Source: a virus. Taken from it: 23,376 nucleotides of DNA. Position 1 is the stretch's first letter; every line of letters starts with the position of its first letter. Of this stretch, positions 2,477 to 14,350 are shown piece after piece. The stretch is from positions 1-23,376 of the IMG/VR virus record IMGVR_UViG_3300020009_000075, one strand, 5' to 3'. The notes beneath the pieces are model-generated. The model worked only from the letters and a program-made list of their open reading frames with translations. It had not been told where the DNA came from and ran no database searches. Both the position numbers and the translations under genes were made by a program.

Positions 2477-3511
2477 TCACATCAGATCCTTCAGGTCGAT
2501 CTCGAGGTCTTCGCTCGGACCTTCCTTCAGTTTCGGGTTCTCGAGGAGTTTCTCCCCGAAATCTTTGGCGAGTGGGTCCCAGACACGCTTGCGGTACTGG
2601 TTGAGCCACTGCTCAGGATTGTTGCTCTTGCAGAGCATTAAGAAGGAGCAGCCGCCGTAGCTCGCGCAGGCGCCCTTACTGATGGCCATATCCCAGTAGC
2701 CTTCATTATAGGCTCGAACCATGCGCCGCAGATCACGATGAAGCTGGAACCACCAGCGTTCGATCTCCCACGTGCTGCGCTGTTGAATGCTCTCGGCGTG
2801 AGTTATTTTGGTTTTGAGAAGCCCAATCCCCCTAACAACCGCGCCCGCGACTGGTATGCCGTGTTCTCTTGCGGCGGCGACGTAGCCGGTGAATTGGGAG
2901 TCGAGGTCCCATTGCGCTGCCCACGTTTCGCCAAGAGAACCGGTAGTTTTCTCGTCGGTGACGTACAAGAGGCCATGCATAACTCCGATCATGTCAGAGC
3001 GTCCGCCGTAGAGGATCGGGTCGCCAGTTTCTGGGTGCATTACTTCAGTAGGGATGGCGAAGCCAAACTCGACCATGGCTTTACCGTCTTTGCCGATGTA
3101 CGGCTTGATTGGATCGAGACCTAGCCTATAGCGGCTCATGTAGCTGTCGAAAGCGCGGATAACGTTCTCGAGGCTTTTGTCACCGGAGCGGGTGGGCGGG
3201 AACTGGACGGGGCCGTAGAACTGCATGAGAGCTTCGAGGCCGCGCGTAAGGCTTTCTGCCTCAGTCTTCCCGTCCTGGTAGAAGCACTTTCTCGCTACCT
3301 CGAGCCCTCGTGCAAACGCCCCGCCTGCATGAAGGTGCACAGAGGGGGCGCTTGGCGCGAGCTGGTAGCCGAAGCTGTACATCCACTTTCGCTCGCATTG
3401 AATGAAGTCGCTTCTCATAGTGTTATCGATGAGCGACGGGAAATGAGGCTTCGTTCCCGTAAACAGCCGAGGGAGCTCGACCGGGACTATCGGTATTACA
3501 CGATCTGGCAC
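2477..3511 (-). CDS. PD-(D/E)XK nuclease, Cas4/RecB-like with four Cys
   Basis: A 344-aa nuclease of the PD-(D/E)XK superfamily. Core motifs are GGRSDMIG (Asp173), VTDEKTT (Glu187, Lys188) and a downstream DSQFTGY with the usual Gln. One Cys in the N-terminal part (QCERKW, Cys39) and three near the C-terminus (Cys282, 288, 294; spacing CX5CX5C) match the layout that binds an iron-sulfur cluster in Cas4 and AddB. Family members act as DNA exonucleases in recombination or genome degradation. The GTG at 3511 is chosen because GGAGGA lies 6 nt upstream; the frame opens further up to an ATG at 3577 with poorer context. It belongs to the same module as the SSB-like protein and ligase. Iron-sulfur binding is inferred. 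Confidence 0.88.
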   Translation of the reverse strand: MPDRVIPIVPVELPRLFTGTKPHFPSLIDNTMRSDFIQCERKWMYSFGYQLAPSAPSVHLHAGGAFARGLEVARKCFYQDGKTEAESLTRGLEALMQFYGPVQFPPTRSGDKSLENVIRAFDSYMSRYRLGLDPIKPYIGKDGKAMVEFGFAIPTEVMHPETGDPILYGGRSDMIGVMHGLLYVTDEKTTGSLGETWAAQWDLDSQFTGYVAAAREHGIPVAGAVVRGIGLLKTKITHAESIQQRSTWEIERWWFQLHRDLRRMVRAYNEGYWDMAISKGACASYGGCSFLMLCKSNNPEQWLNQYRKRVWDPLAKDFGEKLLENPKLKEGPSEDLEIDLKDLM

Positions 3512-3731: not shown

Positions 3732-3764
3732 TTTCGCTGTACTCCTTTCCAGATGATTAACGCC

Positions 3765-3806
3765 ATCGTCGCACATTCCGCGTCAGTTGTCAAGCGGACT
3801 ATCGAC
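3765..3806 (-). promoter_or_regulatory. Phage promoter copy A
   Basis: On the minus strand: ATAGTCCG, CTTGACAACTGA, then -10-like GACGAT exactly 17 nt after TTGACA. It shares its upstream box and ACTGA extension with the copies at 9199, 9969, 12327 and 13712. It sits in the 92-nt gap between the accessory and DNA-metabolism modules and would start transcription near 3758. Confidence 0.75.
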
Positions 3807-3823
3807 GCCGCTCATTCGAGCTC

Positions 3824-4069
3824 CTAGTCAGATTCAGGTGGATATGCCACCGGAGGTGGTGTTGGAACGGGAGGCGGCTTCTGCTGGAGCCTTACCTCCT
3901 TAAGGTAGCGTTCCAAGAGCATTTCGAGAAGTTGCGTTCTCGCTCCATATTTCGGCTTCTCGCGCATCGGATCAGTAATGATGAGTTCTACTTCGGCCGC
4001 AAGATCAGCGCGGACCATCACCTTCCAGGGAATGCGAGGGATAGCGTTAGGCTTGCGGCCGACGCTCAT
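3824..4069 (-). CDS. Ribbon-helix-helix-like small protein, 81 aa
   Basis: ATG 4069 overlaps the upstream stop as ATGA. The order is basic N-terminus (MSVGRKPNAIPRIPWKVMV), a helix with acidic residues (DLAAEVELIITDP), then KPKYGARTQLLEMLLERYL. A short strand followed by two helices, with KPKYGARTQ before the last helix, is the pattern of small phage proteins often regarded as ribbon-helix-helix or CopG-like. The C-terminal 18 residues are Pro-rich and likely disordered. It could be a transcription regulator, and as the last gene of its module it sits just before promoter A. The fold assignment is inferred. Confidence 0.72.
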   Translation of the reverse strand: MSVGRKPNAIPRIPWKVMVRADLAAEVELIITDPMREKPKYGARTQLLEMLLERYLKEVRLQQKPPPVPTPPPVAYPPESD

Positions 4070-4293
4070 GAGATGAGCCTTTCCTTGAGTTGATTCAAGC
4101 AATCTTCTGCGCCTTCCTTGTCCGCGATGAAGATCCAATACTCTTCACCAGCGGTTGATCGGCTCGGCGCTCGGGCAATGACGGCCCAGTTGAACTTCGG
4201 GTCCTCTGGTTCGATGAGTTCGAGAAGCTTGACGTTCTCCATCTGGTCAAGATTCACCAAGTCACCGTCGACGTCAGTAATCCAGTTACTCAT
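4066..4293 (-). CDS. Hypothetical protein, 75 aa
   Basis: Begins MSNWITDVDGDLVNLDQM with GGAG upstream and an ATGA overlap with the previous gene. The layout (aromatic start, a G-x-LVNLD segment, a strand with FNWAVIARA, YWIFIADKEGAEDCL, and a final amphipathic helix) is typical of a short phage protein family annotated as hypothetical. It has no signal peptide or metal motif. The frame extends far upstream, but that part is a shadow of the preceding gene. Coupled to the ribbon-helix-helix-like gene by ATGA. Confidence 0.78.
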   Translation of the reverse strand: MSNWITDVDGDLVNLDQMENVKLLELIEPEDPKFNWAVIARAPSRSTAGEEYWIFIADKEGAEDCLNQLKERLIS

Positions 4294-4610
4294 ACCTTGT
4301 TCTCCGGTATCTGGGCTCTTATGCGAGTAATACCCGGCTGGACTGTAACAAACATTCCAACCTCGCCGTTGTCGAGGCAGCCGAATGAGAGCGCGACTAT
4401 TTTCTTTTTTCTGCCGATAAGCCGCAGGTCTTTTAAAATGTGCTCTATCCGGTTGAACTCGACTTGGCGAGCGCGCTTGATCGCTTCGAGCGGCATCTCC
4501 CTTACTATATTCTCGAGTGCTCCAAGGGATTCCTCGGGAATAAAATAAGTTTGTCCTTCGAGACAAGGTGATGCCGGCACGTTGCTTTTTGCGCCATTTT
4601 CCTCGGGCAT
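4290..4610 (-). CDS. Hypothetical protein, 106 aa
   Basis: Starts at ATG 4610 with GGAG 7-8 nt upstream. The protein has a helical middle (LGALENIVREMPLEAIKRA, VEFNRIEHILKDLRLIG), a basic RKKK, then beta-like sequence to the C-terminus (KIVALSFGCLDNGEVGMFVT). No known domain is recognised. It ends in an ATGA overlap with the next gene, consistent with translational coupling in the long accessory module. Cytoplasmic, function unknown. Confidence 0.72.
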   Translation of the reverse strand: MPEENGAKSNVPASPCLEGQTYFIPEESLGALENIVREMPLEAIKRARQVEFNRIEHILKDLRLIGRKKKIVALSFGCLDNGEVGMFVTVQPGITRIRAQIPENKV

Positions 4611-4627
4611 GCATGAGCTCCATTAGG

Positions 4628-4846
4628 TTATGAAAAGCTTTCTACTTGAACTCTAATTTCACCAAAGCTCGGATCGTTCTCCAGGGTGGGAACGGCCTCC
4701 GCCTGCTGCACAAGCCAAGCCGCCAAAAGCAGCGCCTCGTGGCGTGAGAGTGGATGAGCAGGAGTTTTATGAATAATCACTCTGTACTCACCACATCTCG
4801 CGACCGCGAAGACATTGTCGAAAGGCAGCCCGGGACCTTCGCTCAC
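4628..4846 (-). CDS. Hypothetical protein, 72 aa
   Basis: GTG 4846 overlaps the HIRAN gene stop as GTGA. The sequence has a beta-like first half (FDNVFAVARCGEYRVIIHK) and a helix (SRHEALLLAAWLVQQAEAV). The segment LSRHEALLLAAWL is similar in style to short conserved phage proteins of unknown function. It has no metal-binding or catalytic motif. The 17 nt after its stop separate it from the next gene, one of the few gaps in this module. Confidence 0.75.
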   Translation of the reverse strand: MSEGPGLPFDNVFAVARCGEYRVIIHKTPAHPLSRHEALLLAAWLVQQAEAVPTLENDPSFGEIRVQVESFS

Positions 4847-5205
4847 GGATCCACGTCGAGGTCATCTTCGGAGTTGTAGCTCTCCTCGACGTCGCTCCCG
4901 TTGATCGGCTTCACTTCGATTGTTCCAAGCAGGAACGCCGGCTTCTCTCCTTTCGGCGGGTAGAGCACTTTTACTTTGAGCACTCGCCCGTCCTTGAGCA
5001 GCGCACTAACGTGAGCGCTCATGTCGCGAGCGACGTAGCCGATTTGCTTCTCGTCGGAAAGAACTCGCACGGCGTTGGAGTCGTACGGGTTGCCCGGCTC
5101 CGCCATGAGAGTAAGCGGAGCTCCCGCGAGAAGATGACCTTCGTCGTTCTGCTCCTTCATCGCATGATGAGAACCGCCAACGACACGAATCTGCATTGTT
5201 TCCAT
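4843..5205 (-). CDS. HIRAN-domain protein
   Basis: A 120-aa stand-alone HIRAN domain. It has an IRVVGGSHH strand, the signature NPYDSNAVRV around residues 39-48, and IGYVARDMSAHVSALLKDG. A C-terminal acidic tail follows (ESYNSEDDLDVDP). HIRAN domains occur in SNF2 helicases such as HLTF, where they bind 3' ends of single-stranded DNA, and as single-domain phage and bacterial proteins. ATG 5205 is chosen with GGAAGGG about 6 nt upstream; an ATG three codons later is possible. The acidic tail could recruit partners or mimic DNA. Its role in this phage is probably recognition of stalled or damaged DNA, which is inferred from the family. Confidence 0.88.
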   Translation of the reverse strand: METMQIRVVGGSHHAMKEQNDEGHLLAGAPLTLMAEPGNPYDSNAVRVLSDEKQIGYVARDMSAHVSALLKDGRVLKVKVLYPPKGEKPAFLLGTIEVKPINGSDVEESYNSEDDLDVDP

Positions 5206-5207
5206 TT

Positions 5208-5537
5208 CTAACCCTTCCGTTGAAAGATGTCGATGATGATCTGGTTGAAGTGCATGCAGAGGAGAAGCGATTCCTCCTCCGGGACCTTCAGCTGATCGCA
5301 CAGATCCTTATGTATCGACCGCAAGAGGTCATGCACCTCGCGCTGGAATAACTCCAGTTGAAACTCGGGGTCTACCTTTGCTCTGATTACTCCTTCGCTT
5401 AAGAGGTTTTCAATAAGCATGAGCTCGGCGGCCATAGAGCTGGTGAATGCGAGACCGGGGCCGTGCGTGTGAGCGATCGACTCCTCGATAGCGTCGAAGC
5501 GTTCGGTCAGGCGAATTGATCGCGCGCGGTCTGTCAT
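5208..5537 (-). CDS. Hypothetical helical protein, 109 aa
   Basis: ATG 5537 overlaps the upstream stop as ATGA. The protein is almost wholly helical, with regularly spaced hydrophobic residues (TERFDAIEESIAH, AAELMLIENLLSEGV, EFQLELFQREVHDLLRSIH, LLLCMHFNQIIIDIF). This suggests a small helical bundle or oligomer. No domain is recognised. It lies immediately upstream of the HIRAN gene, so the two are probably co-expressed. Confidence 0.75.
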   Translation of the reverse strand: MTDRARSIRLTERFDAIEESIAHTHGPGLAFTSSMAAELMLIENLLSEGVIRAKVDPEFQLELFQREVHDLLRSIHKDLCDQLKVPEEESLLLCMHFNQIIIDIFQRKG

Positions 5538-5896
5538 CGGCCGCTTCGCTCACCCTCGCGCACGAGTGCTTCTCCCATCGCCTCGAGAAAGGCACGCGAG
5601 AGTTTGTAGCGATGCACCTGCTCGAAGCCGGTCTGGGCGTTGTCGCGAGGCGAAGCTTCGATCACGCAGTTCGTGGTGAGCCACTTGGTCATGCCCTCGT
5701 TTTCCGCGTAGTCTTTGATCCAGACTTCTCCCTCGGGACAATCCTCTTCGACCATGTTAACGCTGGCGGTCGCGAGCACTTCATCGTAACCGTCTGGTTT
5801 GCCCACGAGAATGAGCGCCAGACGGTTATTCGGATAGTGGTGAACCTCGAGATCGGCTAACCACTCCTTGAAAGGTAAGCCAAAGAGGATCTTCAT
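5534..5896 (-). CDS. DUF4313-like phage protein, 120 aa
   Basis: Coupled at both ends by ATGA. The pattern NRLALILVG, then ATASVNMVEEDCPEGEVWIKDY, ENEGMTKWLTTNCVIE is that of a phage/plasmid family of unknown function: a beta-rich part with A-T-x-V-N, followed by an IKDY-x-ENEGM segment. I place it near DUF4313 from memory of that pattern, so the family name is less certain than the conservation. The C-terminal helix (RAFLEAMGEALVREGERSG) is charged. Cytoplasmic; function unknown. Confidence 0.78.
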   Translation of the reverse strand: MKILFGLPFKEWLADLEVHHYPNNRLALILVGKPDGYDEVLATASVNMVEEDCPEGEVWIKDYAENEGMTKWLTTNCVIEASPRDNAQTGFEQVHRYKLSRAFLEAMGEALVREGERSGR

Positions 5897-6081
5897 TTGT
5901 CCACCTCGATGGTGATCTTGATCCGATCCGGGGAGCCGCCGAAGGCTTTCTTGAGCGCTTCTTGCGAGACGTATGCGTTAGGCATTACCTCGCGACCGCC
6001 TCCGACGATGTCATAGCGCGTCATGCGCAGAGTCGGGCGGGTGTTCGACATCTTGACTACGATCTTCTGATCATCGGGCAC
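5893..6081 (-). CDS. Hypothetical protein, 62 aa
   Basis: GTG start at 6081 with AAGGAG about 8 nt upstream; the stop is coupled by ATGA to the next gene. The sequence alternates short strands (KIVVKMSNT, TRYDIVGGG) with one helix (SQEALKKAFGG) and ends in a strand (RIKITIEVD). No motif is recognised. The compact alpha/beta content and operon position suggest a small accessory protein. Confidence 0.72.
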   Translation of the reverse strand: MPDDQKIVVKMSNTRPTLRMTRYDIVGGGREVMPNAYVSQEALKKAFGGSPDRIKITIEVDK

Positions 6082-6096
6082 GTGAGTCTCCTTAGG

Positions 6097-6312
6097 TTAG
6101 GACAGCGCCTTGCACGACATCTTGAAAACGACACCCCCTGGAGTTTTGTCTTTGAACTTGTTTAGTTCATCCAGATTGATCGCTCCTTGTACCCTGTAAT
6201 CCGGTGTGAGATAAACATACGCGGGCTTTCCTTGTATGAGCATCAGCACTTGCCAGGTGAGATCAGGGAGTCTGACCTGGTGTATGGTCTTGCTGTTCAA
6301 AACAGGTTTCAT
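6097..6312 (-). CDS. Hypothetical protein, 71 aa
   Basis: ATG 6312 with AAGGAG 6 nt upstream, a strong ribosome binding site. The protein is mainly beta (HQVRLPDLTWQVLMLIQG, AYVYLTPDYRVQGAI) with a basic C-terminal part (NKFKDKTPGG, MSCKAL). No signal peptide or catalytic motif is seen. A 15-nt gap follows before the next SD-bearing gene, so it is translated independently within the same module. Function unknown. Confidence 0.72.
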   Translation of the reverse strand: MKPVLNSKTIHQVRLPDLTWQVLMLIQGKPAYVYLTPDYRVQGAINLDELNKFKDKTPGGVVFKMSCKALS

Positions 6313-6330
6313 TTGGAGCTCCTTGGTTGA

Positions 6331-6585
6331 CTACTTTACTACGCGGTAAGGTTGCGGCTCACCCTCACGGATGAAGTCAGCGACCATTTGCGTGTGCCTG
6401 CACTCGTCGACAGCGCGGTTGCGCCACCTGGGGCAGTTGCACACGAGCTTGGCTTTGTATGTTGGGCTGGGAACGACTTCAACCCTGTACTCGGCCGCGG
6501 GAGCGTCGGTGTTGTCGTCGAACTTGACGACGGAGAACTGGATTAAGTTCTTCCGCTTGATGAAGTATTCGCTCTCGTGTGCCAT
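6331..6585 (-). CDS. SWIM-type zinc-finger protein, 84 aa
   Basis: Contains CNC at residues 49-51 and CRH at 62-64, i.e. CxCx(n)CxH, the SWIM zinc-finger signature known from SWI2/SNF2, MuDR transposase and bacterial nucleic-acid or protein binding proteins. A beta-rich N-terminal half (NLIQFSVVKFDDN, EYRVEVVPS) precedes it. ATG 6585 is chosen over the upstream 6615 because AGGAG lies 8 nt before it and it overlaps the previous stop as TGATG. It is the last of three adjacent zinc-binding microproteins. DNA binding or partner recruitment is a family-based guess. Confidence 0.82.
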   Translation of the reverse strand: MAHESEYFIKRKNLIQFSVVKFDDNTDAPAAEYRVEVVPSPTYKAKLVCNCPRWRNRAVDECRHTQMVADFIREGEPQPYRVVK

Positions 6586-6737
6586 CAGATGTTCTCCTCG
6601 CACGCTTCTTCGCACTCGGTACAGCAGGTGCAGAAGTTGTCAGAACAATCGTTGTCAATCTGGCAAGCATATGGACAGGCGTGTGGCTCGACAGCAGCAT
6701 TAACGCCACAGACACTGCATTTGGCTTCGCTTTCCAT
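6585..6737 (-). CDS. Cys-rich zinc-binding microprotein, 50 aa
   Basis: About one residue in five is Cys: CSVC near the start, then ACPYAC, a lone Cys, FCTCCTEC, and a final Cys. It contains EPHACPYA and ends acidic (EEACEENI). The spacing suggests two zinc sites, and the core resembles small phage proteins with a PHACPYA block whose function is unknown. ATG 6737 is selected because GGAGG lies 9 nt upstream and it overlaps the preceding stop as TAATG; the ATG 12 codons upstream lies inside the preceding gene. Confidence 0.82.
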   Translation of the reverse strand: MESEAKCSVCGVNAAVEPHACPYACQIDNDCSDNFCTCCTECEEACEENI

Positions 6738-6892
6738 TAGTTCGCCCTCCACCACCAGATGAACGCTTGCCACAGTGTTAGTCCGCGAAAGGCTCGCTCG
6801 GTTTCCCAGCAGAAGTCACACTTCCTCGTGTGCCTCATGAGAGTAGACGATTTGCAGTACTTGCACGGCACGGTAAGGTGATACGTGTTCAT
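6737..6892 (-). CDS. Zinc-ribbon microprotein, 51 aa
   Basis: Begins MNTYHLTVPCKYCKS, with a second pair CDFC after about 12 residues: two CxxC knuckles forming a zinc ribbon. A Trp-rich C-terminus follows (WQAFIWWWRAN). AAGGAGGAG directly precedes the ATG at 6892, one of the best ribosome binding sites in the window. Start and stop overlap neighbouring genes by one nucleotide (TGATG and TAATG). The Trp-rich end could be amphipathic and membrane- or partner-contacting. It probably binds nucleic acid or protein; function unknown. Confidence 0.78.
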   Translation of the reverse strand: MNTYHLTVPCKYCKSSTLMRHTRKCDFCWETERAFRGLTLWQAFIWWWRAN

Positions 6893-7332
6893 CACTCCTC
6901 CTTCACGTTCAAGGTGACAACGTAGCGCTTCCCTTGAATCTGCATCGTAACGCTGCCCGTGTCGAGAAGCTCCACGAGTTCGCTCGTATTTGATTCAAAG
7001 AGGCCGCCGATGGAACGCTGTTCCGGGTCAAAGCTCTTGATCATGAGCTCGTTGAGGCGTTCGAACTCGCCGCGTGGATCACTCTCGAGCAACCGACAGG
7101 TATCGAGAACCATCTCCCACTCACCGCGAGCGTTCTTCTGAAGAACGGTAATCCAGGTGGGAGAGCCGCCCCAGACGATGTACCCAATCGGGCCTGCGTA
7201 ACCGGGGCAGTCCGTCATATAGTTCTCGAGTACGAACGTTTGGCTGGAGCTCAGGTCCATCTCCTTCGTGCCGTCTCGCTTCTCAACGAGCGACATGAAG
7301 GTTTTGTGCTCAGGACGGGTTGCGAGTCGCAT
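6892..7332 (-). CDS. Hypothetical protein, 146 aa
   Basis: ATG 7332 with GGGAGGA about 8 nt upstream. The gene overlaps the previous one by 23 nt. Features are a Gly/Trp-rich middle (YAGPIGYIVWGGSPTWITVLQ), a charged helix (PRGEFERLNELMIKSF) and a C-terminal beta segment (TMQIQGKRYVVTLNV). No known domain is recognised. Its stop overlaps the zinc-ribbon gene start as TGATG. Probably cytoplasmic. Confidence 0.76.
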   Translation of the reverse strand: MRLATRPEHKTFMSLVEKRDGTKEMDLSSSQTFVLENYMTDCPGYAGPIGYIVWGGSPTWITVLQKNARGEWEMVLDTCRLLESDPRGEFERLNELMIKSFDPEQRSIGGLFESNTSELVELLDTGSVTMQIQGKRYVVTLNVKEE

Positions 7333-7504
7333 TTAATATTCCTCCCTTGAGTTGAAACTCTTCCACTCGGCAGCAGCGAAGAACGGTCACGCCGCTGATA
7401 TGGACGTAAAGAACTGCGCGAGTTGGATCCCACTCGATTTCGACGTTAGCCGGAGATGTTACGTCGAGCGAATGGTCAATGAGATACTGAATGTCGGGGC
7501 TCAT
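7310..7504 (-). CDS. Hypothetical protein, 64 aa
   Basis: ATG 7504 overlaps the upstream 35-aa gene stop as ATGA; only a weak GGGA SD is present, so reinitiation is likely. It begins MSPDIQYLIDHSLDV, followed by strands (NVEIEWD, AVLYVHISGVTVLRCCRVEEF). Its last 23 nt overlap the next gene in another frame. No motif is recognised beyond a CC pair. Confidence 0.62.
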   Translation of the reverse strand: MSPDIQYLIDHSLDVTSPANVEIEWDPTRAVLYVHISGVTVLRCCRVEEFQLKGGILNATRNPS

Positions 7505-7608
7505 ATTAGTTCCCAGGAAAAACTAGATATTTCTGCTGAGGCACGCTTGGCGAGAAATTGTGAATCCAGCCATCGACGCGTGGGATCAGCTACCGTGAAC
7601 GGCTTCAT
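7501..7608 (-). CDS. Microprotein, 35 aa
   Basis: Begins MKPFTVADPTRRWLDSQF and ends FSWELI. The case for this gene is positional: ATGA overlap with the previous stop and ATGA overlap with the next start exactly fill the space between two genes, as elsewhere in this operon. The SD is weak (GGTGA), so translation would depend on coupling. It has no homology I can recognise. Proteomics or comparison with related phages would decide. Confidence 0.5.
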   Translation of the reverse strand: MKPFTVADPTRRWLDSQFLAKRASAEISSFSWELI

Positions 7609-7817
7609 TGAGTCACCATCAGGCGTGAACCAGCGATGTACTCGGCAAGGGCGTAACGCTTGGCGTGAGTGCCGAGCGACCAACCTTTGTTGTACTCGCG
7701 TTGGCGCTTCAGGCTGCGGAACTTGCGCGGCTGCTTGCGACCTTGAACTGCATCGCGCCATCCAGTGCGGAAACTCGGGTGAGACAGATACGTTGGCTTC
7801 ATTTGATCGAGAGTCAT
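7605..7817 (-). CDS. Small basic protein, 70 aa
   Basis: ATG 7817 overlaps the upstream stop as ATGA. Very basic: SFRTGWRDAVQGRKQPRKF, SLKRQREYNKGWSLG. The pattern G-W-x-DA-x-x-G, a basic stretch, then Y-x-x-GW-x-x-G is reminiscent of ribosome-modulation-factor-like and other small phage RNA-binding proteins, but the match is loose. It likely binds nucleic acid. The stop is coupled to the 35-aa gene. Confidence 0.7.
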   Translation of the reverse strand: MTLDQMKPTYLSHPSFRTGWRDAVQGRKQPRKFRSLKRQREYNKGWSLGTHAKRYALAEYIAGSRLMVTQ

Positions 7818-8272
7818 TTGACCTCCTCATCCAGGTGATATTGCACCATCCAGTCGACAGTCGGGGACGTCTCGACTGCGACCCACGTCTTGCCTTGATC
7901 GGGCGACTGCATGAGTGGCCGGAACTCTTCGCCGACGATTCGCTCGACACGCTCACGATCTCCGACTTCCTTGAAGCACTCAGCGGAGTCAGGATGGCGA
8001 AACTCGACCACTGCCAGGCGTCGGGGCTTGAAGATTACGGGGATCTGATTCCCTTTCGAGTCGCGCGTCATGGAAACTCCTTTGAGCTTCAAGGTGACCT
8101 TCGGTTCCGGAGCTGGAATGGTGCGCCCAGCATCGTAGCCGTTGACGCTCTCGGCCGGAACCCTGACTGCTTTCCCGCTGGGATAGACACCATACTGATA
8201 CGATCTACCCTGGTCGTCGGTTCGGACACCTGGCAGCACCATAAGATTTGCAGGGAGTTCAGGCTTTTTCAT
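7814..8272 (-). CDS. Hypothetical protein, 152 aa
   Basis: Starts at ATG 8272 (MKKPELPANLMVLPG) with GAGGAG 7 nt upstream and an ATGA overlap with the preceding 37-aa gene; an upstream ATG at 8293 lies in that gene. The N-terminal half is Pro/Gly-rich and beta-like (YGVYPSGKAVRVPAES). The C-terminal half (VEFRHPDSAECFKEVGD, ERVERIVGEEFRPL, TWVAVETSP) looks like a separate alpha/beta unit. An internal ATG at 8071 has an ideal AAAGGAG 5 nt upstream, so a shorter 85-aa product may also be made. Function unknown. Confidence 0.75.
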   Translation of the reverse strand: MKKPELPANLMVLPGVRTDDQGRSYQYGVYPSGKAVRVPAESVNGYDAGRTIPAPEPKVTLKLKGVSMTRDSKGNQIPVIFKPRRLAVVEFRHPDSAECFKEVGDRERVERIVGEEFRPLMQSPDQGKTWVAVETSPTVDWMVQYHLDEEVK

Positions 8273-8382
8273 GAACGTCTCCTCGCAGGCCAACGCTTCT
8301 TAGCCAAGGCAGATCCGGTTTTACCAATCGCTGGCCGTTTGCACAACCAGATTCCTTTGTGGTATTCCGCTATTTTTCTCAT
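8269..8382 (-). CDS. Basic microprotein, 37 aa
   Basis: MRKIAEYHKGIWLCKRPAIG, followed by a Lys/Arg-rich end (AKKRWPARRRS). It is framed by ATGA junctions on both sides: its ATG overlaps the stop of the 198-aa gene and its TGA overlaps the ATG of the 152-aa gene. There is no good SD of its own, so it would be made by reinitiation. The strong positive charge suggests nucleic acid binding. It is below usual gene-caller length, and no homologue is known to me. Confidence 0.55.
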   Translation of the reverse strand: MRKIAEYHKGIWLCKRPAIGKTGSALAKKRWPARRRS

Positions 8383-8975
8383 TCGAGCCCCTTGATGATG
8401 ATCTCATCGTCATTGGCAGCCACGTCGAAGTCGATTTCTTTTTGTGCGAAGAGTTTTCGCTCTTCCTCGAGTTGCTGATCCCAAATCGCTGCCTGTGCAG
8501 CCTGATCGACCCTAATGCAGCCCGAGCAACGAGCTACCTTCTGATAGTGCCATTCGATCAGATCCTCGAGAGGTTTGATTATCTCATGCACGAGGAACAG
8601 GTTGGGACAATGCGCGGCTGATCGGAGAATAAAGCCACCGAAGGGCCGAGTCGATTTGAACTTCACGTACTCACCACCGATGAATTCTGTCACATCGGAG
8701 CAACACGCGCATTCTTGAATTACAACGTGAGTTACGTTGGCGATGGGCTGCCAAGCAAGGGAATCCTCGGGGTTTAAACGCTCGGGGCTCTTGCCAGTTC
8801 CCTTGCCTATTTGAGGATTTGCTTGGTGCCAAGCCTTATTGAGGGGCCTGTGCGATGTGTCTTTCTTTTTCTTCCCAAAATCCTCATTGAGTTCGGCCAG
8901 GAAATCCATCGTTTCCTGATCCGGCGTCTTACCCTGCGGTACTGGTACAGAATCCTGCTTTTTCGGAGTGTTCAT
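8379..8975 (-). CDS. Hypothetical zinc-binding-like protein, 198 aa
   Basis: ATG 8975 with GGAG upstream. The first 75 residues are charged and low in hydrophobics, probably disordered (FGKKKKDTSHRPLNK, GKGTGKSPERL). The middle has ECACCSD followed later by a single Cys and CSGC: Cys clusters compatible with one zinc site. The C-terminus has a helical acidic stretch (AIWDQQLEEERKLFAQ) and DDEIIIKGLE. No catalytic domain is recognised. It is the second gene of the accessory module. Confidence 0.76.
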   Translation of the reverse strand: MNTPKKQDSVPVPQGKTPDQETMDFLAELNEDFGKKKKDTSHRPLNKAWHQANPQIGKGTGKSPERLNPEDSLAWQPIANVTHVVIQECACCSDVTEFIGGEYVKFKSTRPFGGFILRSAAHCPNLFLVHEIIKPLEDLIEWHYQKVARCSGCIRVDQAAQAAIWDQQLEEERKLFAQKEIDFDVAANDDEIIIKGLE

Positions 8976-8990
8976 GTTATCTCCAGGTGG

Positions 8991-9149
8991 TTAAAGGAAC
9001 AGCGCCAACGTGAAAACTGCTACTGTAACGAGGCCGCCAAGCGCACAGATATAACTAACGCCTGGGTACTTATCAGAAATCTCGACGGCCAGAAAAATGG
9101 CAGCGATTGTGAGAAAGAAAACTGCTACGTCGTCAGTTATCGGGTTCAC
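8991..9149 (-). CDS. Small two-helix membrane protein, 52 aa
   Basis: GTG start at 9149 with GGAA upstream; begins MNPITDDVAV. Two hydrophobic stretches, about residues 8-23 (AVFFLTIAAIFLAV) and 33-52 (YICALGGLVTVAVFTLALFL), are joined by EISDKYPG. This predicts a small inner-membrane protein with a short cytoplasmic or periplasmic loop. It is the first gene after promoter B (predicted transcript start near 9192), in a stretch otherwise empty. It could be a holin-like or superinfection-exclusion protein; no lysis partners are next to it, so I do not name it holin. Confidence 0.66.
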   Translation of the reverse strand: MNPITDDVAVFFLTIAAIFLAVEISDKYPGVSYICALGGLVTVAVFTLALFL

Positions 9150-9188
9150 TGTTTGGTTCCGTCAGGTTTTGCGCGCGAGAAGGGCCAC

Positions 9189-9203
9189 ATAATGCGCCAT
9201 TAT
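9189..9203. repeat. Palindrome copy 2 (ATAATG-CGC-CATTAT)
   Basis: A perfect 6-bp inverted repeat with a 3-nt centre, 40 nt upstream of the membrane-protein start. It overlaps the -10 region of promoter B. The outer flanks GGGCC and GCGCCCC partly extend the dyad. Confidence 0.8.
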
Positions 9204-9240
9204 GCGCCCCATTTGGTCAGTTTGTCAAGCACTCTATTTC
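9199..9240 (-). promoter_or_regulatory. Phage promoter copy B
   Basis: On the minus strand: AATAGAGTG, CTTGACAAACTGA, then CATAAT 18 nt after TTGACA. It differs from the other copies by one extra A and a spacer of 18, and has the best -10 of the family. It would start the long accessory module at about 9192. Confidence 0.75.
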
Positions 9241-9252
9241 GAGAACGCAAAG

Positions 9253-9275
9253 AAAAAGCCCCAAAATTCTGGGGC
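9253..9275 (-). terminator. Intrinsic terminator after the 191-aa gene
   Basis: On the minus strand GCCCC and GGGGC form a 5-bp stem around an 8-nt loop, followed by TTTTT. It lies about 70 nt after the stop at 9345 and just before promoter B, closing a single-gene transcription unit. The flanking sequence could also work weakly in the plus direction. Confidence 0.75.
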
Positions 9276-9344
9276 CTTTTCAGGTAGTTGGGGAGTTAGT
9301 GGAGTCCTTCCGCTAGCTTTACCTCGACGCTCCCCGTAGATTGG

Positions 9345-9920
9345 TTAGGCTGGCTCGAGATCGACTTCGATCTCTTTCGCCTCCTCGCCCTGCGCTTCGA
9401 ACGCGGCCGCAGCCTTCTCGGCGCGCATCTTGGCGATGGTGGCTTTGACGCCGGCGTTGCCTCTCCACGCCTTGCGCTCGTCGTCGGTCGCCTTCTCGAC
9501 CGCAGCGCGAGCCTTCTCCACGTTCACGCCCTTGATGCGGGCGATTGCCTCGGCCAGCTCGGCCAGACGCGGGGCGCCGCCTTCGCGGTCGGCGGTCCAC
9601 TCGTTCGCGTAGAGCTGGTCGATCGTGGCCTGCGCGTTCTTGATGCCCTCGCCGAAGTTGCCCTTCACGCCTGCGAAGGAATCGCCGATCTTCTGGCTCG
9701 CGCCGTGGCAGCGCAGGTCGAGCTTCGTCTCGTCGTTGACCTTGTTAGTGTCGAACGTCAGGACGGTGCCATTGCCGAACTTGAAGCTCACGACGCCTGA
9801 CTCGTCCCAGGACTTGTCGCAGAACTTCGGGGGTTTCGCTGCCCCGCCTCCGGACGCTTGCTGTTGACCTTCGGCTGCGAAGATACCCGACAGGGCCATT
9901 GCGATGATACTGCGTTGCAT
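9345..9920 (-). CDS. Phage-conserved hypothetical protein, 191 aa (paralogue of 12820-13290)
   Basis: ATG 9920 with AAAGGAG about 7 nt upstream, a strong site. The core has VVSFKFGNGTVLTFDTN, then LDLRCHGASQKIGDSFAG, LYANEWTADREGG, LAELAEAIARIKG and a helical C-terminus (AGVKATIAKMRAEKAAAAF) ending acidic. The HG-x-x-QKIGD plus W-x-x-R plus LAEAIAR order belongs to a common phage family of unknown function. The gene at 12820-13290 shares the order and the C-terminal VKA-IAK-AE-AAA block. It has its own promoter and terminator, which points to high or specially timed expression. The N-terminal 25 residues are Ala/Gly/Gln-rich and only weakly signal-like. Confidence 0.85.
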   Translation of the reverse strand: MQRSIIAMALSGIFAAEGQQQASGGGAAKPPKFCDKSWDESGVVSFKFGNGTVLTFDTNKVNDETKLDLRCHGASQKIGDSFAGVKGNFGEGIKNAQATIDQLYANEWTADREGGAPRLAELAEAIARIKGVNVEKARAAVEKATDDERKAWRGNAGVKATIAKMRAEKAAAAFEAQGEEAKEIEVDLEPA

Positions 9921-9968
9921 GTAAATCTCCTTTGGTTAATTGGACTCGGGAATCGCTCCCGAATGATG

Positions 9969-10010
9969 ATCGTGCCACGGGTCGATTCAGTTGTCAAGAA
10001 CTCTATTTCA
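9969..10010 (-). promoter_or_regulatory. Phage promoter copy C
   Basis: On the minus strand: AATAGAGTT, CTTGACAACTGA, then CACGAT exactly 17 nt after TTGACA. Predicted start is near 9962, about 40 nt before the 191-aa gene. The TAG inside its AATAG box is the stop codon of the preceding gene (10003). Confidence 0.78.
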
Positions 10011-10191
10011 GTAACGGCAGATCCGGAAGTATGGCGAAGCTCACGATCGGCGATTCAGGTTGCCAATCCCATCCACCTATATTCATCCAATTAGACACTG
10101 AATAGCTATCGTCTGCATGAATACACAGGTACGCCAAACTATAACCTAGGGTTGGTGGTACACCTTGACGGAACTCGAGTGTGATCTTCAT
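10003..10191 (-). CDS. Hypothetical protein, 62 aa
   Basis: ATG 10191 overlaps the upstream stop as ATGA. The sequence contains GVPPTLGYSLAYLCIHADD and WMNIGGWDWQPESPIV, rich in Trp and beta-formers. No motif is recognised. It is the last gene of the promoter D module, and its stop codon forms part of the upstream box of promoter C, so the gene and the promoter share bases. Confidence 0.7.
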   Translation of the reverse strand: MKITLEFRQGVPPTLGYSLAYLCIHADDSYSVSNWMNIGGWDWQPESPIVSFAILPDLPLLK

Positions 10192-10460
10192 GTCCAGGCG
10201 GGACGTTCGGTCCAGCCGTTGTAGCAGTCCCAGCGTGCGCCATTGAAGCGGAGCGCATGCACCTGGATGCCGTGTATCCAGACGTATTGCTGATTGACAG
10301 CTTTCTTGAGCCGCCGGTCTGCCAGGAGATGAGTGCTGATGCTCTCAGGGCCTGTCCAAGGTTCCCACTCATCGCCTTCAGTTCCAATGAAATGCGAGGG
10401 TCGCACGTGCTCCTGCTCGGGGTGGATTTCAGTCTTTAAACGCTCCTTGAGATCTTTCAT
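10188..10460 (-). CDS. Hypothetical protein, 90 aa
   Basis: Starts at ATG 10460 (MKDLKERLKTEIHPEQ), overlapping the upstream stop as TGATG, with AGGA further upstream; an ATG at 10490 has no SD. A charged N-terminal helix is followed by aromatic-rich beta sequence (WEPWTGPESI, QQYVWIHGIQVHALRF, RWDCYNGWTE). No domain is recognised. Coupled to the next gene by ATGA. Cytoplasmic. Confidence 0.7.
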   Translation of the reverse strand: MKDLKERLKTEIHPEQEHVRPSHFIGTEGDEWEPWTGPESISTHLLADRRLKKAVNQQYVWIHGIQVHALRFNGARWDCYNGWTERPAWT

Positions 10461-11284
10461 CAGATGCAGATTCCTAGAGAAGTGGCGCAATTAGGACAGG
10501 TAACGTTATGCTTGTCTGCCATACTTACCCAGGTGTGACCTGCGGGCCAGTCGATAGGTCGACCCTTGATGCCGCAGCGAGCCGAACCTAAGTCGAGCAC
10601 GTGGCAGATTTCCTTCTCTAGCCGTTTATCTCGTGCGTAATCGAGCGCCTCTTGAGTGCTGGTATCGATTGCAGGATCGATGGTGACGAATACTGGCGGC
10701 GCGTTCTGGAGCTCCTTGAGCTTTTCAAGGCCATCGAGCAGATTATCTGCGTGCCGCATGACCCAGTCGTAGACGTCCTTAGGTGTGCAGTGTGCGTTTC
10801 TGTGGTCGCGGATGACTGAGCGGAACTCGAGCCACTCGTCTTCCCAGTCGATGCTTCGCGCCCCAGGATTGGACACCGGGCTTGGGCTCGGGCTCGGTGC
10901 TGATGGCGCGCCTAATTGCTTGCTCGGGTCCCAGGGAACGGTTGCGCTTTTGGGCTGGGGTGAAATAGAAGGATCGCCCCGTAGATGCTTCTCGACAAAA
11001 TCATCTATACCTTTCATCGGATCTGAGGCTGGGCTAACGCGCAAGATACGCTTCGCTTCTGCCTCGCTTTCTTCAGGCCAGCCTCCGAACGCGTGCCAGG
11101 TGTGCGTGCGGCCACACTTGCAGATATCGCTGTCGAAATCGCGAGGAGTGTATTCATGATCAGGTTTCATCGTATCTCCATACATTAATGCGAGTTCTAA
11201 TTTGGTAACCCAGGTTCTATACCACAGTAGAGGTGGATCGTCGCGGTCAGTTACGCTGCGCTCCTGCGAGTTCGCGGAGGTCAT
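10460..11284 (-). CDS. Hypothetical protein, 274 aa, two Cys clusters
   Basis: ATG 11284 overlaps the peptidase-like gene stop as ATGA but lacks a clear SD. An in-frame ATG at 11170 with GGAG 5 nt upstream would give 236 aa and may be the main start. Near the second start is DICKCGRTHTWHAFGG, and near the C-terminus CPNCATSLGIC: Cys/His groups that suggest one or two zinc sites. The centre is a Pro/Ser-rich linker (SAPSPSPSPV), then a helical region (DVYDWVMRHADNLLDGLEKL). Function unknown; it may bind nucleic acid through the zinc sites. Confidence 0.7.
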   Translation of the reverse strand: MTSANSQERSVTDRDDPPLLWYRTWVTKLELALMYGDTMKPDHEYTPRDFDSDICKCGRTHTWHAFGGWPEESEAEAKRILRVSPASDPMKGIDDFVEKHLRGDPSISPQPKSATVPWDPSKQLGAPSAPSPSPSPVSNPGARSIDWEDEWLEFRSVIRDHRNAHCTPKDVYDWVMRHADNLLDGLEKLKELQNAPPVFVTIDPAIDTSTQEALDYARDKRLEKEICHVLDLGSARCGIKGRPIDWPAGHTWVSMADKHNVTCPNCATSLGICI

Positions 11285-11592
11285 TTCGGATCATACTCGA
11301 TGTGGAAGTGAGTTGGGCCTTGGCGCTCATATATCACATCGTAGTCGGGACCTAAGCGAGCTTTCACACGCTTCACTATTTGCTCGCAATCGTCTGCGGG
11401 TATGTGACGAGCTCTGTAATCGAGCGCTTTGCCGTCGCCGTGGAGTGTGCCGATCATGTGCACTCCATTGCTTCCGCAGGTAATCACACACTCGTAGCCC
11501 ATCGCGTAGGTCATCTCGTCTTCGAGCACAAGGCTCGCGTGGAACATCTGCCATACTACACGCTCGATGCTTGCTCCAGCTTTGATCTTCAT
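11281..11592 (-). CDS. M15-type peptidase-like protein, 103 aa
   Basis: Shows the zinc-peptidase pattern of small M15/VanY-like endolysin domains: GVHMIGTLHGDGKALDYRAR with His51 and Asp58, then THFHIEYDP with His97 as the third ligand. Family members cut D-Ala-D-Ala or peptidoglycan cross-links. The protein is a single short domain with no signal peptide, so access to the wall would need a holin, or it acts elsewhere. ATG 11592 has AAAGGA 6 nt upstream. It lies in a leftward accessory module, not in a visible lysis cassette, which is unusual for an endolysin. Confidence 0.8.
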   Translation of the reverse strand: MKIKAGASIERVVWQMFHASLVLEDEMTYAMGYECVITCGSNGVHMIGTLHGDGKALDYRARHIPADDCEQIVKRVKARLGPDYDVIYERQGPTHFHIEYDPK

Positions 11593-11594
11593 CG

Positions 11595-12104
11595 TTATCC
11601 TTTCAACATATCAGGATGGGGTTGGTTGCACTTGAGGCAGAACGTAAGCTCGTTTGTCCACTCATGAGCGCCGCCTTTCGGACAGGCTGGAGCCATTGGA
11701 TCTGCGAGGCTCATGTACTTCTTGACTGCGTCTTCAGCGGGGTCGCCGACGGAGGATTGCGCGTCAACGCTCGGCATAGAGACTTCGACTGGTGTTTTAA
11801 TCTCGAGCTCTGCGCTGCTGACCTTCAACTCGAGCGCCCACAACCCGCGAGGAACGAACAGAATAAAGTGTTGGCCTGCTTGCTCCTCGATTCGCACGAT
11901 CAGGTCTTGGGTCGCCGGAGCGAATTCGTGCTCTTCTGCTGCTAGCGCGACTCGAAAGCGATTGAACTGGTGTCGGGTACTGATCGCTGAGCTCTTGTCG
12001 GGCATCGGCCAGGGTGTTATCGGCTGCTGAGCAAACGCTCTGGCTGCTACCTCCCAAAGCGGCCTTGGATAGCTCTTCGAACTCGTTTGTGCTCGTTTCG
12101 TCAT
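11595..12104 (-). CDS. Hypothetical protein, 169 aa, C-terminal zinc-ribbon-like
   Basis: ATG 12104 with AAGGAA 6 nt upstream. The first 35 residues are basic and Ser/Pro-rich. The middle is helical then beta (TRHQFNRFRVALAAEE, LIVRIEEQAGQHFILFVP). The end has ACPKGGAHEW and FCLKCNQPH, a likely Cys/His zinc knuckle. It is the first confident gene of the promoter D module and follows a 216-nt leader. No domain is recognised with certainty. Confidence 0.75.
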   Translation of the reverse strand: MTKRAQTSSKSYPRPLWEVAARAFAQQPITPWPMPDKSSAISTRHQFNRFRVALAAEEHEFAPATQDLIVRIEEQAGQHFILFVPRGLWALELKVSSAELEIKTPVEVSMPSVDAQSSVGDPAEDAVKKYMSLADPMAPACPKGGAHEWTNELTFCLKCNQPHPDMLKG

Positions 12105-12320
12105 AAGGTTTCCTTGCGTGGTGGGATAGGAATATGGATGAGGGCTAAGAGCCTAAATGGCTATCTGCGATCCCCCGGTCATTTACGTCCAAGTTGCCGG
12201 GTAGTGGTTCTTAAAAAAAAAAAGAAAAAAAGAAAAAACACTGACGTGGCAAGATCCCGCTTGGCCGAAGATATGAGGGGGGTCGCATATAGCCATATAG
12301 GAGGTTTAGGGCTCATTGAT
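12105..12320 (-). other. Leader between promoter D and the 169-aa gene, with homopolymer tract
   Basis: No confident gene. On the minus strand a hairpin-like GGCCAAG / CTTGCC is followed about 9 nt later by T6-C-T7-C-T11 (plus positions 12213-12239). A 45-codon ORF (ATG at 12316) begins a few nt after the predicted transcript start and reads through the tract as a run of Phe and Leu, but it lacks an SD. The tract could act as an attenuator or slippage site. Confidence 0.45.
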
Positions 12321-12326
12321 GTTGCT

Positions 12327-12367
12327 ACGTTAACGGTTGCACGATCAGTTGTCAAGTGGACTATTCC
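12327..12367 (-). promoter_or_regulatory. Phage promoter copy D
   Basis: On the minus strand: AATAGTCCA, CTTGACAACTGA, then TAACGT exactly 17 nt after TTGACA. Predicted start is near 12320. It drives the module from 12104 to 10003. The 145 nt between this site and the next terminator (12368-12512) show no gene. Confidence 0.77.
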
Positions 12368-12512
12368 GGCATTCGATCGCTCGCGCGACCTCTTCGCTGA
12401 AAGCTAATCGGAGCGAATCAATCGGAGCTCACAGTCGAGAGAGAAAAGCTTAGGCGCCATGGGAGCTTTCGTGCGCCGAGCACAAGCGCCTTGACTGTAA
12501 GTCGAGGTTGGG

Positions 12513-12535
12513 AAAAACTGCCCTTAGCGGGGCAG
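12513..12535 (-). terminator. Intrinsic terminator over the stop of the 57-aa gene
   Basis: On the minus strand CTGCCC / GGGCAG form a perfect 6-bp stem around a 6-nt loop, followed by TTTTT. The TAA stop of the 57-aa gene lies in and beside the loop, so gene and terminator overlap. Confidence 0.82.
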
Positions 12536-12697
12536 CTCTCCTTCCTCGTAGGCTCTGCGGTTCTCGAGCACCAGCGCGATACACTGCGCGGCCTGCAAGT
12601 CATACTGACCGTCAGGACATTTGCAATAAAACTCGAACGCTTTCTTCAGCGTCTCTGTCGGAATTCTCTGTACCATCTTCCAGTTCGGACGTTCCAT
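12524..12697 (-). CDS. Hypothetical protein, 57 aa
   Basis: ATG 12697 with AGGAG 7 nt upstream. The protein begins MERPNWKMVQRIPTETLKKA and ends YEEGELPR; the middle has FYCKCPDGQYDLQAAQCIAL with three Cys. It is mainly helical and acidic at the end. It is flanked by a leader hairpin upstream and an intrinsic terminator at its stop, so it appears to be a small independently controlled unit. No family is recognised. It is easily missed because of its length. Confidence 0.72.
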   Translation of the reverse strand: MERPNWKMVQRIPTETLKKAFEFYCKCPDGQYDLQAAQCIALVLENRRAYEEGELPR

Positions 12698-12720
12698 TCT
12701 CTTCTCCTAAAAGCCCAGGG

Positions 12721-12758
12721 GCGACTGAGTGTGACTTCTGACGAGCTCGCTCAGTCGC
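12721..12758. promoter_or_regulatory. 9-bp inverted repeat in the leader of the 57-aa gene
   Basis: GCGACTGAG and CTCAGTCGC are perfect complements separated by 20 nt. The RNA hairpin would stand about 23 nt before the start codon of the 57-aa gene. It might control translation, stabilise the transcript, or be an RNase III-type processing site. Confidence 0.6.
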
Positions 12759-12771
12759 ACTCTCCGTTAGC

Positions 12772-12777
12772 ATTATA
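12772..12777 (-). promoter_or_regulatory. Candidate -10 (TATAAT) for the 57-aa gene
   Basis: A perfect TATAAT on the minus strand lies directly after the terminator of the upstream unit. No good -35 is found 16-18 nt upstream, so this is only a candidate promoter. Confidence 0.3.
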
Positions 12778-12787
12778 TGTCACCGGA

Positions 12788-12812
12788 GGAAAACCGGGGC
12801 CTCTCGACCCCG
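12788..12812 (-). terminator. Intrinsic terminator after the 156-aa gene
   Basis: On the minus strand CGGGG / CCCCG form a 5-bp stem around an 8-nt loop, followed by GTTTTCC. It begins 8 nt after the stop at 12820. Confidence 0.7.
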
Positions 12813-12819
12813 TACACCT

Positions 12820-13290
12820 TTACTCGAAGACTACTTTGATCTCTTCCTTCGAGTCCGCGGCGTTCGCGGCCGCTCGCTCGGCGTAGATCTTCGCGATCTC
12901 CGCTTTCACCTTCAGGTCGCTTCTCCAGAGCTTCACCTGATCCGGCATTGCGACTGCGGCTTTCTGCAGCTTCTCCACCGGGTACTTGCGCGGGTTCAGC
13001 CGATTCATGGCCTCGATCACGATCGCAGTCGTATCGCGCGCACCAGCCGTCATGCGCCAGTCGCCGCCGTTCTTGTAATGCGCGGCCAGTTCCACGCACG
13101 CGTCGTACTTGGCTTGCCCGAGGTCGTCGCCGCTCTCGAGATCGCCGAAGCGTTGGAGGTAACCGTGCTCCTCGGCTTCCGCGTGATTGGCAGCCGGGAA
13201 CGTCGCCAGATCGATACGCAGCTTTTTCTCGATCTTCTCGAAGTCCAGATGGAGGACGCCGTTCACGATGCTCTTTTTCAGCACTTTCAT
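12820..13290 (-). CDS. Phage-conserved hypothetical protein, 156 aa (paralogue of 9345-9920)
   Basis: Begins MKVLKKSIVNGVLHLDFEKI, with AAAGGA 9 nt before the ATG at 13290; an ATG six codons upstream (13308) with GAGG 5-6 nt before it is a real alternative. It shares with the 191-aa protein the order LHLDFEK, KLRIDLAT, HGYLQRFGD, a GDWRMT block, and a C-terminal VKAEIAKIYAERAAAN ending in an acidic strand. Both belong to a common phage family of unknown function. It is the first gene transcribed leftward from the central control region and has its own strong sigma70-type promoter, long leader and terminator, so early and high expression is likely. Confidence 0.85.
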   Translation of the reverse strand: MKVLKKSIVNGVLHLDFEKIEKKLRIDLATFPAANHAEAEEHGYLQRFGDLESGDDLGQAKYDACVELAAHYKNGGDWRMTAGARDTTAIVIEAMNRLNPRKYPVEKLQKAAVAMPDQVKLWRSDLKVKAEIAKIYAERAAANAADSKEEIKVVFE

Positions 13291-13308
13291 TTGATCGATT
13301 CCTTTCAT

Positions 13309-13506
13309 GTGATCCTCAGCCGGGATTGGCCGAGGTGTCAATACTACCATGTCTGTCCGCTCGCAGGGAGCCTTTCGGCTGTACGGCTGCACAGATCGCA
13401 ACCTTGAGGACTGGAGTCAGGCTTCTGGCCGCCCGGAGGCGAAAGGGGCTTCAACCCTTCAGGTCTTGATCGACCTCACCACCACTTGATCTCAACTACT
13501 AACCAC
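13309..13506 (-). other. Long structured leader before the 156-aa gene
   Basis: About 200 nt from the predicted transcript start to the gene, with no supported ORF. Possible RNA stems include AGGTC / GACCT, AGCC-GAAA-GGCT (a GNRA-capped hairpin) and GGG-TTGAA-gCCC. It matches no riboswitch or tRNA that I can recognise. It may regulate translation or encode a small RNA. Confidence 0.45.
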
Positions 13507-13512
13507 AGAATC

Positions 13513-13541
13513 ATTGTCCCATAAAACTCATCTTGTGTCAA
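13513..13541 (-). promoter_or_regulatory. Strong sigma70-type promoter (host-like)
   Basis: On the minus strand: TTGACA, 17 nt, GACAAT, with TGG just before the -10 (extended -10 form). It lacks the ATAG box and ACTGA extension of the other promoters. It would start at about 13506 and feed the leader and the 156-aa gene. It is probably an early promoter read by host RNA polymerase. The stretch 13542-13683 beyond it shows no gene I can support. Confidence 0.75.
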
Positions 13542-13683
13542 ATCTTTTTGATGGGGCTGAATCATGTTAAGAATCAAGTACTTAATGAGGAGTGAGTACC
13601 CACCTGCCCCCAAAAAGTTCGTGAGCGGATTCTCCCATACGGTCAGACGGCGCGCGAGAAAATCTGGGGAATTAAAAGGCCCA

Positions 13684-13698
13684 ATAATGGCCCATTAT
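13684..13698. repeat. Palindrome copy 3 (ATAATG-GCC-CATTAT)
   Basis: A perfect 6-bp inverted repeat with a 3-nt centre, 24 nt upstream of the -35 of promoter E in the divergent control region. On the minus strand it is followed by TGGGCCTTTTAATT, close to the right flank of copy 1. Confidence 0.8.
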
Positions 13699-13711
13699 CT
13701 TCCCCTTAAAG

Positions 13712-13750
13712 CATAGTCCTCTTGACAACTGAATTCGATTCGGTTACCGT
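13712..13750 (+). promoter_or_regulatory. Phage promoter copy E (late operon)
   Basis: ATAGTCCT, CTTGACAACTGA, then TACCGT 17 nt after TTGACA. It is the only plus-strand copy and faces the packaging and head genes. The predicted start is at about 13757, the A of the terS ATG. Confidence 0.78.
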
Positions 13751-13756
13751 GGCGTT

Positions 13757-14350
13757 ATGACTCAGAGCCAAGATTCCGAACAGAACCGCGGGAGCTCGAT
13801 CCTCAAGCGAGGCATGACGCCGACGCACGAGCTGATGGGCGAATGGATCCTGCAGAATCCAGGCGGGACCCTGCGCGAGATGGGCGCGCACTTCGGCTAT
13901 AGCGAAACGTGGCTGAGTCAGGTGATTAACTCCGATATGTTCAAAGCTTATATGGCCCAGCGCATGGGCGACATTCAGAGTTACGTCTCGCTCGACATCC
14001 CGCAGAAGATGGCCCACCTAGCGAACCAGAGCATCGAGCGGATGCGCGAAGTTCTCGAGAAAACCAACGATGCTGAGGTTATCAAGGATTCGTTCGACAA
14101 GGTCATGCACCGCTACGGCTACGCTCCGAATGCCAGGAACGCAATCCAGCCTGACGGCCCGAAGCCCGGCGCGGTTCAGAACAACGTCTTCTTCCTGAGC
14201 GCCGAGGATCATGCGCGTGTCAAGGAGAAGCTGATCAACTCGCACGCCCAGCCCGCGGAGCCCCAAGCTCTGCCCCCGCCAGCGCAACCGGCGCAGGCTC
14301 AACCGCAATCGGAAGAGGATGCAAGAGAGCGCACCGTTACCGACACCTAA
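13757..14350 (+). CDS. terS: Terminase small subunit
   Basis: A 197-aa protein. Residues about 35-65 (GGTLREMGAHFGYSETWLSQ, then VINSDMFKAYMAQR) form a helix-turn-helix typical of small terminases that bind packaging sites. A helical oligomerisation region follows (IPQKMAHLANQSIERMREVL). The C-terminal third is Pro/Gln/Ala-rich (PPPAQPAQAQPQ), probably the flexible part contacting the large subunit. It is the first gene of the late arm, with TerL four genes on. No SD precedes the ATG, and the predicted transcript begins at or beside it, so the message may be leaderless; internal ATGs (such as 13814) also lack good SDs. The call rests on the domain layout and position. Confidence 0.86.
   Translation: MTQSQDSEQNRGSSILKRGMTPTHELMGEWILQNPGGTLREMGAHFGYSETWLSQVINSDMFKAYMAQRMGDIQSYVSLDIPQKMAHLANQSIERMREVLEKTNDAEVIKDSFDKVMHRYGYAPNARNAIQPDGPKPGAVQNNVFFLSAEDHARVKEKLINSHAQPAEPQALPPPAQPAQAQPQSEEDARERTVTDT

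Follow-up and report, generated by a model that had tools for sequence, protein, structure and literature searches.

A conserved block over the -35 element of predicted host-type promoters in a tailed phage and its relatives, and its putative role as a regulator site

Described promoter and operator systems

Phage-specific boxes in the -35 region of a promoter set are known from the MotA-dependent middle promoters of phage T4, which have no -35 hexamer and combine a MotA box at about -30 with a good -10. The sites described here share the presence of such a box, but their layout is the reverse, with a perfect -35 and weak -10s, and the combination that defines MotA-type promoters was not found in them. 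In common with bacterial sigma70 promoters (TTGACA-17-TATAAT, extended TGn), they present the -35 consensus, a spacing of 17-18 nt, -11A, -7T and, in part, TGn, but they differ in having about 20 bp of conserved sequence around the -35, a feature missing from ordinary promoters. The UP element of strong promoters finds a parallel in the A-rich stretch located directly upstream of the -35 in relatives of this phage, whereas the DNA analysed here carries a fixed word, ATAG, rather than an A-tract.

The operators and stoperators of cluster A mycobacteriophages comprise over twenty 13-bp sites, including intergenic ones (PMC9283540). As in L5 and TipsytheTRex (PMC9283540), the sites analysed here are asymmetric, occur several times per genome, are located at early promoters and vary between lineages. 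In contrast to L5-type stoperators, however, the block is confined to promoters. A search for CTTGACAACTGA allowing one mismatch returned no further match in the window, which ties the block to promoters and led us to reject a stoperator reading. The temperate lifestyle that accompanies L5-type sites was likewise not apparent from searches for an integrase and a repressor: no tyrosine integrase (PF00589) was found in 20 records, some of them incomplete, with positive controls matching, and no clear immunity repressor (HTH_3 over cut-off) was detected in the relatives searched. None of the publications searched contained the motif sequence or mentioned the relatives by name.

Five predicted promoters with a host sigma70 layout

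The window, that is, the whole stretch of DNA analysed, encompasses a complete virus record of 23,376 bases and represents a fragment of a tailed phage. Its plus strand encodes terminase, portal and major head protein, and its minus strand small early genes, an exonuclease and a DNA ligase. The terminase is similar to that of Microcystis phage Mel-JY34 (41%) and to that of Vibrio phage vB_VspS_VS-ABTNL-3 (36%). The features relevant to this analysis are as follows.

2477-3490, minus strand: exonuclease gene (PHROG 1218), in the module of early promoter 1
3765-3802, minus strand: predicted early promoter 1 (exonuclease/ligase module); block 3783-3802, ATAGTCCGCTTGACAACTGA; -35 at 3788-3793; -10 GACGAT at 3765-3770, preceded by TGC
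3824-4069, minus strand: small ribbon-helix-helix-like protein, candidate regulator, conserved in the phage family
9189-9203, no strand assigned: palindrome ATAATGCGCCATTAT, overlapping the -10 of early promoter 2; repeat family unrelated to the block
9199-9237, minus strand: predicted early promoter 2; block 9217-9237, ATAGAGTGCTTGACAaACTGA, one base inserted; -35 at 9223-9228; -10 CATAAT at 9199-9204; spacer 18
9252-9281, minus strand: intrinsic-terminator-like hairpin directly upstream of early promoter 2
9969-10006, minus strand: predicted early promoter 3 (gene 9345-9920); block 9987-10006; -35 at 9992-9997; -10 CACGAT at 9969-9974, preceded by TGG
12327-12364, minus strand: predicted early promoter 4 (genes 12104 down to 10003); block 12345-12364; -35 at 12350-12355; -10 TAACGT at 12327-12332
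13713-13750, plus strand: predicted late promoter (structural operon); block 13713-13732; -35 at 13722-13727; -10 TACCGT at 13745-13750
13757, plus strand: ATG of the small-terminase candidate, after the late promoter
15767-17179, plus strand: terminase large subunit, in the operon of the late promoter

The first-pass annotation had described five sites sharing a single motif. Four of them contain ATAG-N4-CTTGACAACTGA exactly (the blocks of early promoters 1, 3 and 4 and of the late promoter), a pattern with no matches in 100 dinucleotide shuffles. The description has to be amended for the copy at 9229 (minus strand, site 9199-9240), which reads CTTGACAaACTGA with one inserted base; this extra A, seen in ATAGAGTGCTTGACAaACTGA, deprives the site of CTTGACAACTGA and the spacer spans 18 nt. 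The placement of the copies at module boundaries was borne out by gene order and by the hairpin (9281-9252) preceding the 9229 promoter.

Other elements were observed in the vicinity of these sites. On the minus strand, TTGACA with a -10 core but without the block is present at 13313-13341 and 13513-13541, near gene 12820-13401. This gene and gene 9345-9920 are early paralogs (31.5% over 165 aa), both located near a promoter and each with relatives in other genomes. A second repeat family, the palindrome ATAAT-N5-ATTAT with partly symmetric flanks, has four copies in the window (227-241, 9189-9203, 13684-13698 and 21768-21782) and none in shuffles, with one copy covering the -10 of the 9229 promoter and another lying upstream of the late promoter. 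The palindrome was absent from seven other genomes scanned, and may constitute an operator, a terminator or some other site. The late -10 is followed after 6 nt by an ATG, so that the message of the small terminase may lack a leader; 10/34 late promoters, versus 15/97 early ones, have an ATG 5-8 nt downstream of the -10.

The -35 hexamer is a full TTGACA at all five sites, which account for five of the 14 exact instances of this hexamer in the window. The -10 hexamers listed in the first-pass annotation (GACGAT, CATAAT, CACGAT, TAACGT and TACCGT, in the order of the features above) and their spacings (17, 18, 17, 17 and 17 nt) were correct. Of these hexamers, which the annotation characterized as mostly poor, four match the consensus at only 3/6 bases; position 2 is A and position 6 is T in all five (chance for all five about 6e-5, with spacers of 16-18 nt), and an extended TGn precedes two of the poorest, GACGAT and CACGAT. 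Two sequence features expected of the sigma70 class, TTGACA in full and an A2/T6 -10 at 16-18 nt, were hence found together at 5/5 sites.

The same layout was observed in relatives, which were collected through their terminase, head protein and exonuclease and of which about 85 were used for the -35/-10 layout; for the exonuclease, a single-protein query gave no relatives and an alignment query gave matches. In these genomes, instances of NANNNT after TTGACA peak at 17 nt (25/47 late-region and 46/106 early-region TTGACAs), with counts of 0-14 at every other spacing, and TGn precedes the -10 in 27/108 and 27/144 cases, versus 46/841 for TTGACAs without a -10. Many relatives present a promoter at the late-operon position (TTGACA-17-TAxxxT) that lacks the block. 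The -10s of late promoters range from TATAAT to TAGGGT and mostly keep T1, A2 and T6, of which A2 and T6, but not T1, were demanded by the search. Searches for the single-subunit phage RNA polymerase (phrog_414), the gene that would define a T7/N4-type promoter class, returned no match in the window, which is a fragment, nor in 19 relatives, some of them with incomplete records, while the T7 control was found. A 1,893-aa protein encoded at the end of the late operon of Mel-JY34 (L173:17795-23476) was considered as a virion RNA polymerase and discarded, since it is a DarB-like antirestriction protein according to PHROGs and no RNA polymerase was seen in it. The sigma70 layout in relatives, together with the lack of a phage RNA polymerase among those searched, indicates that the five sites are most likely host sigma70-type promoters.

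These observations bear on the proposal, put forward in the first-pass annotation, that the poor -10s require a phage-made activator or a sigma-appropriating factor of the MotA/AsiA kind. The low consensus match of four -10s and the position of the block, centred near the binding position of some activators, are in line with this idea. Nevertheless, all five sites have a perfect -35, the opposite of what is seen in MotA- and CII-type promoters, and TGn is present at two of the weak -10s. Furthermore, promoters of the family without the block likewise show weak TAxxxT -10s, indicating that weak -10 middles are normal in this family, with or without it, and that no special factor is called for. 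By way of analogy only, lax -10s with a conserved TTG have been reported in some alphaproteobacteria (PMC3616915, PMC4943231); prophage matches provided only five metagenome-bin matches of mixed taxa as a clue to the host. With the sigma70 layout independent of the block and no single-subunit RNA polymerase found in the window or the 19 relatives, we consider this proposal improbable. Recognition by another factor of the sigma70 family, such as a heat-shock type with CTTGA, would agree with the frequent C before TTGACA in the phage family, but the -35 is exactly TTGACA and the -10s of relatives reach TATAAT at 17 nt, which is the housekeeping consensus, making such a factor very improbable.

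Conservation of the block among relatives

The first-pass annotation had also pointed to conservation extending beyond the -35, and the analysis supports this observation. The conserved block spans about 20 bp, from -44 to -25 (ATAGNNNNCTTGACA(a)ACTGA), and is centred on the -35 hexamer. Its symmetry is loose (AGT..ACT, at variable distance), and an operator of the usual dyad type is hence not evident.

According to gene order, the four leftward promoters map to four promoters at equivalent module boundaries in G002, a relative of the phage. The block of early promoter 1 is identical at 19/20 positions in its counterpart (51134, minus strand), that of early promoter 2 is identical in 5769 (minus strand), inserted A included, and CTTGACAACTGA is exact in the counterpart of early promoter 4 (8260, minus strand). 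At early promoter 3 the block is only partly kept, with ATAG..CTTGACAaACTtG preserved upstream of the orthologous gene (6696, minus strand). For the exonuclease, 9229, 9998 and 12356 promoters, respectively, matches amount to 8, 9, 5 and 6 of the nine bases before the -35 and to 5, 5, 1 and 5 of the five bases after it (the third with one inserted base), versus 1, 6, 4 and 4 of the 12 remaining spacer bases and near-random flanks. The absence of the motif from equivalent gaps in close relatives, named in the first-pass annotation as an outcome that would refute its proposal, was thus not observed at the four leftward promoters: in G002 the block is well preserved at three of them and partly at the fourth.

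This comparison also addresses the notion that one promoter was recently copied inside the genome and that the letters beyond the -35 are unselected. The copies are indeed alike within one genome, and the regions 3758-3802 and 13713-13757 share 73% over 45 nt. However, the presence of the four leftward copies at the same boundaries in G002 places them before the split of the two phages, and divergence has affected their spacers and -10s but spared the block. Recent copying of the leftward copies is largely refuted by this sequence comparison, and as a general explanation it appears scarcely credible. The late copy is the only one that could be a recent transfer.

Beyond G002, TTGACAACTG[AG] was identified at all three leftward promoters found in G016. 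The (A)ACTG word follows the -35 in 11/91 early promoters of relatives, whereas among TTGACAs lacking a -10 it does so in 4/546 (p 2e-7); the exonuclease-anchored set, whose genomes partly overlap the first, gives 10/91 versus 3/327. Promoters of one genome resemble each other at spacer positions 1-8 more than promoters of different genomes do (p 0.001; 0.009 when G000 and G002 are left out), a trend not observed for positions 9-16. Since all these tests treat promoters sharing ancestry as independent, their p-values are too small. A different word, CCGGGCG, is common to three promoters in G022. Searches with the exact block across all viral contigs returned 12 stretches, two of them with a good -10 (L009 and L015); those inspected were scattered and none was a terminase relative of the window. 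As a separate observation, the early promoters of G006 (L040-L042) and G022 (L166-L168) present palindromes over the -10 (CCCCGGGGAATA..TATTCCCCGGGG and GGCGGATTAT..ATAATCCG, respectively) that resemble repressor operators.

Among late promoters, the (A)ACTG word was detected in none of the 33 from relatives, leaving that of the window as the only one of the 34 in the set to carry it. The first-pass annotation had envisaged one regulator timing the leftward modules and the late operon together. The distribution of the word does not support this as a general scheme, and indicates that early-late coupling is peculiar to the phage of the window; joint timing, if working at all, would be private to this phage.

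The nature of the conserved word can also be explained without a regulator. In plain host sigma70 promoters, ATAG would be an A-rich sequence contacted by the alpha subunit of the polymerase, and (A)ACTG would be kept for the polymerase or for promoter geometry. The early promoters of relatives are generally A-rich from -44 to -40 (A reaches 66% at -44), suggesting that the ATAG half could contact the alpha subunit instead of a regulator; moreover, the layout is complete without any factor and a related word recurs in many relatives. The word is nonetheless missing from the late promoters of relatives, the comparison with G002 and G000 yields sharp block edges and a kept one-base insertion, and we know of no sequence-specific sigma contact with the spacer bases adjoining the -35. 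We regard this explanation as possible, yet rather unlikely.

A putative regulator site and its candidate binder

The block has sharp edges, covers about 20 bp across the -35 and is missing from the late promoters of relatives, features that suggest a putative regulator site. We hence favour, with modest confidence, an interpretation of these sequences as host-sigma70 early promoters with an embedded regulator site. All five sites would be read by host RNA polymerase carrying the main sigma factor; four of them would start leftward early modules and the fifth the rightward structural operon. The block would be the predicted target of a sequence-specific regulator, and we infer the existence of such a binder. 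Given that the block overlaps a perfect -35, competition of the bound protein with sigma region 4 is the simplest mode of action and repression its likeliest outcome, so that repression or modulation is a likelier role for the putative regulator than activation or sigma appropriation. The early modules would be repressed together or turned down on schedule, with both the repressor sign and the timing inferred. The presence of the block in the late promoter suggests that late transcription in the phage of the window would fall under the same control.

A candidate for this role, proposed in the first-pass annotation, was the ribbon-helix-helix protein encoded at 3824-4069, whose family is conserved beside the exonuclease module. 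Profile matches for this family are weak (RHH_3, 1e-4 in one member), and its solved-structure matches are all ribbon-helix-helix proteins, with E-values of only 0.08-0.15. The monomer was modelled with high confidence (pLDDT 91) and returned no fold match, a result of little weight here since the ribbon-helix-helix strand takes shape in the dimer. A correspondence between strand residues and promoter word appeared suggestive by eye, but carriers of the ACT[TG] word do not group together on the tree of these proteins (10 changes versus a shuffled mean of 11.6, with 71-87 of 500 shuffles as low). This indirect test did not favour the protein as the binder of the block, and sequence data leave it as one candidate regulator among many.

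A broader and more speculative proposal, to which we assign a low probability, is that members of a large, apparently lytic phage family carry a lineage-specific word by the host -35 (ACTGA/ACTGG here, CCGGGCG in G022), read by a phage-made regulator of shifting specificity, and that the phage of the window drew its late operon under the same control. The analysis provides a promoter map, early leftward and late rightward, for a widespread phage family whose members are mostly uncultured and whose terminases link it to Microcystis phage Mel-JY34 and Vibrio phage vB_VspS_VS-ABTNL-3. The results point to host-polymerase-driven transcription in this family. If the block has a binder, these promoters would constitute a test case for the timing of expression in phages without a polymerase of their own.
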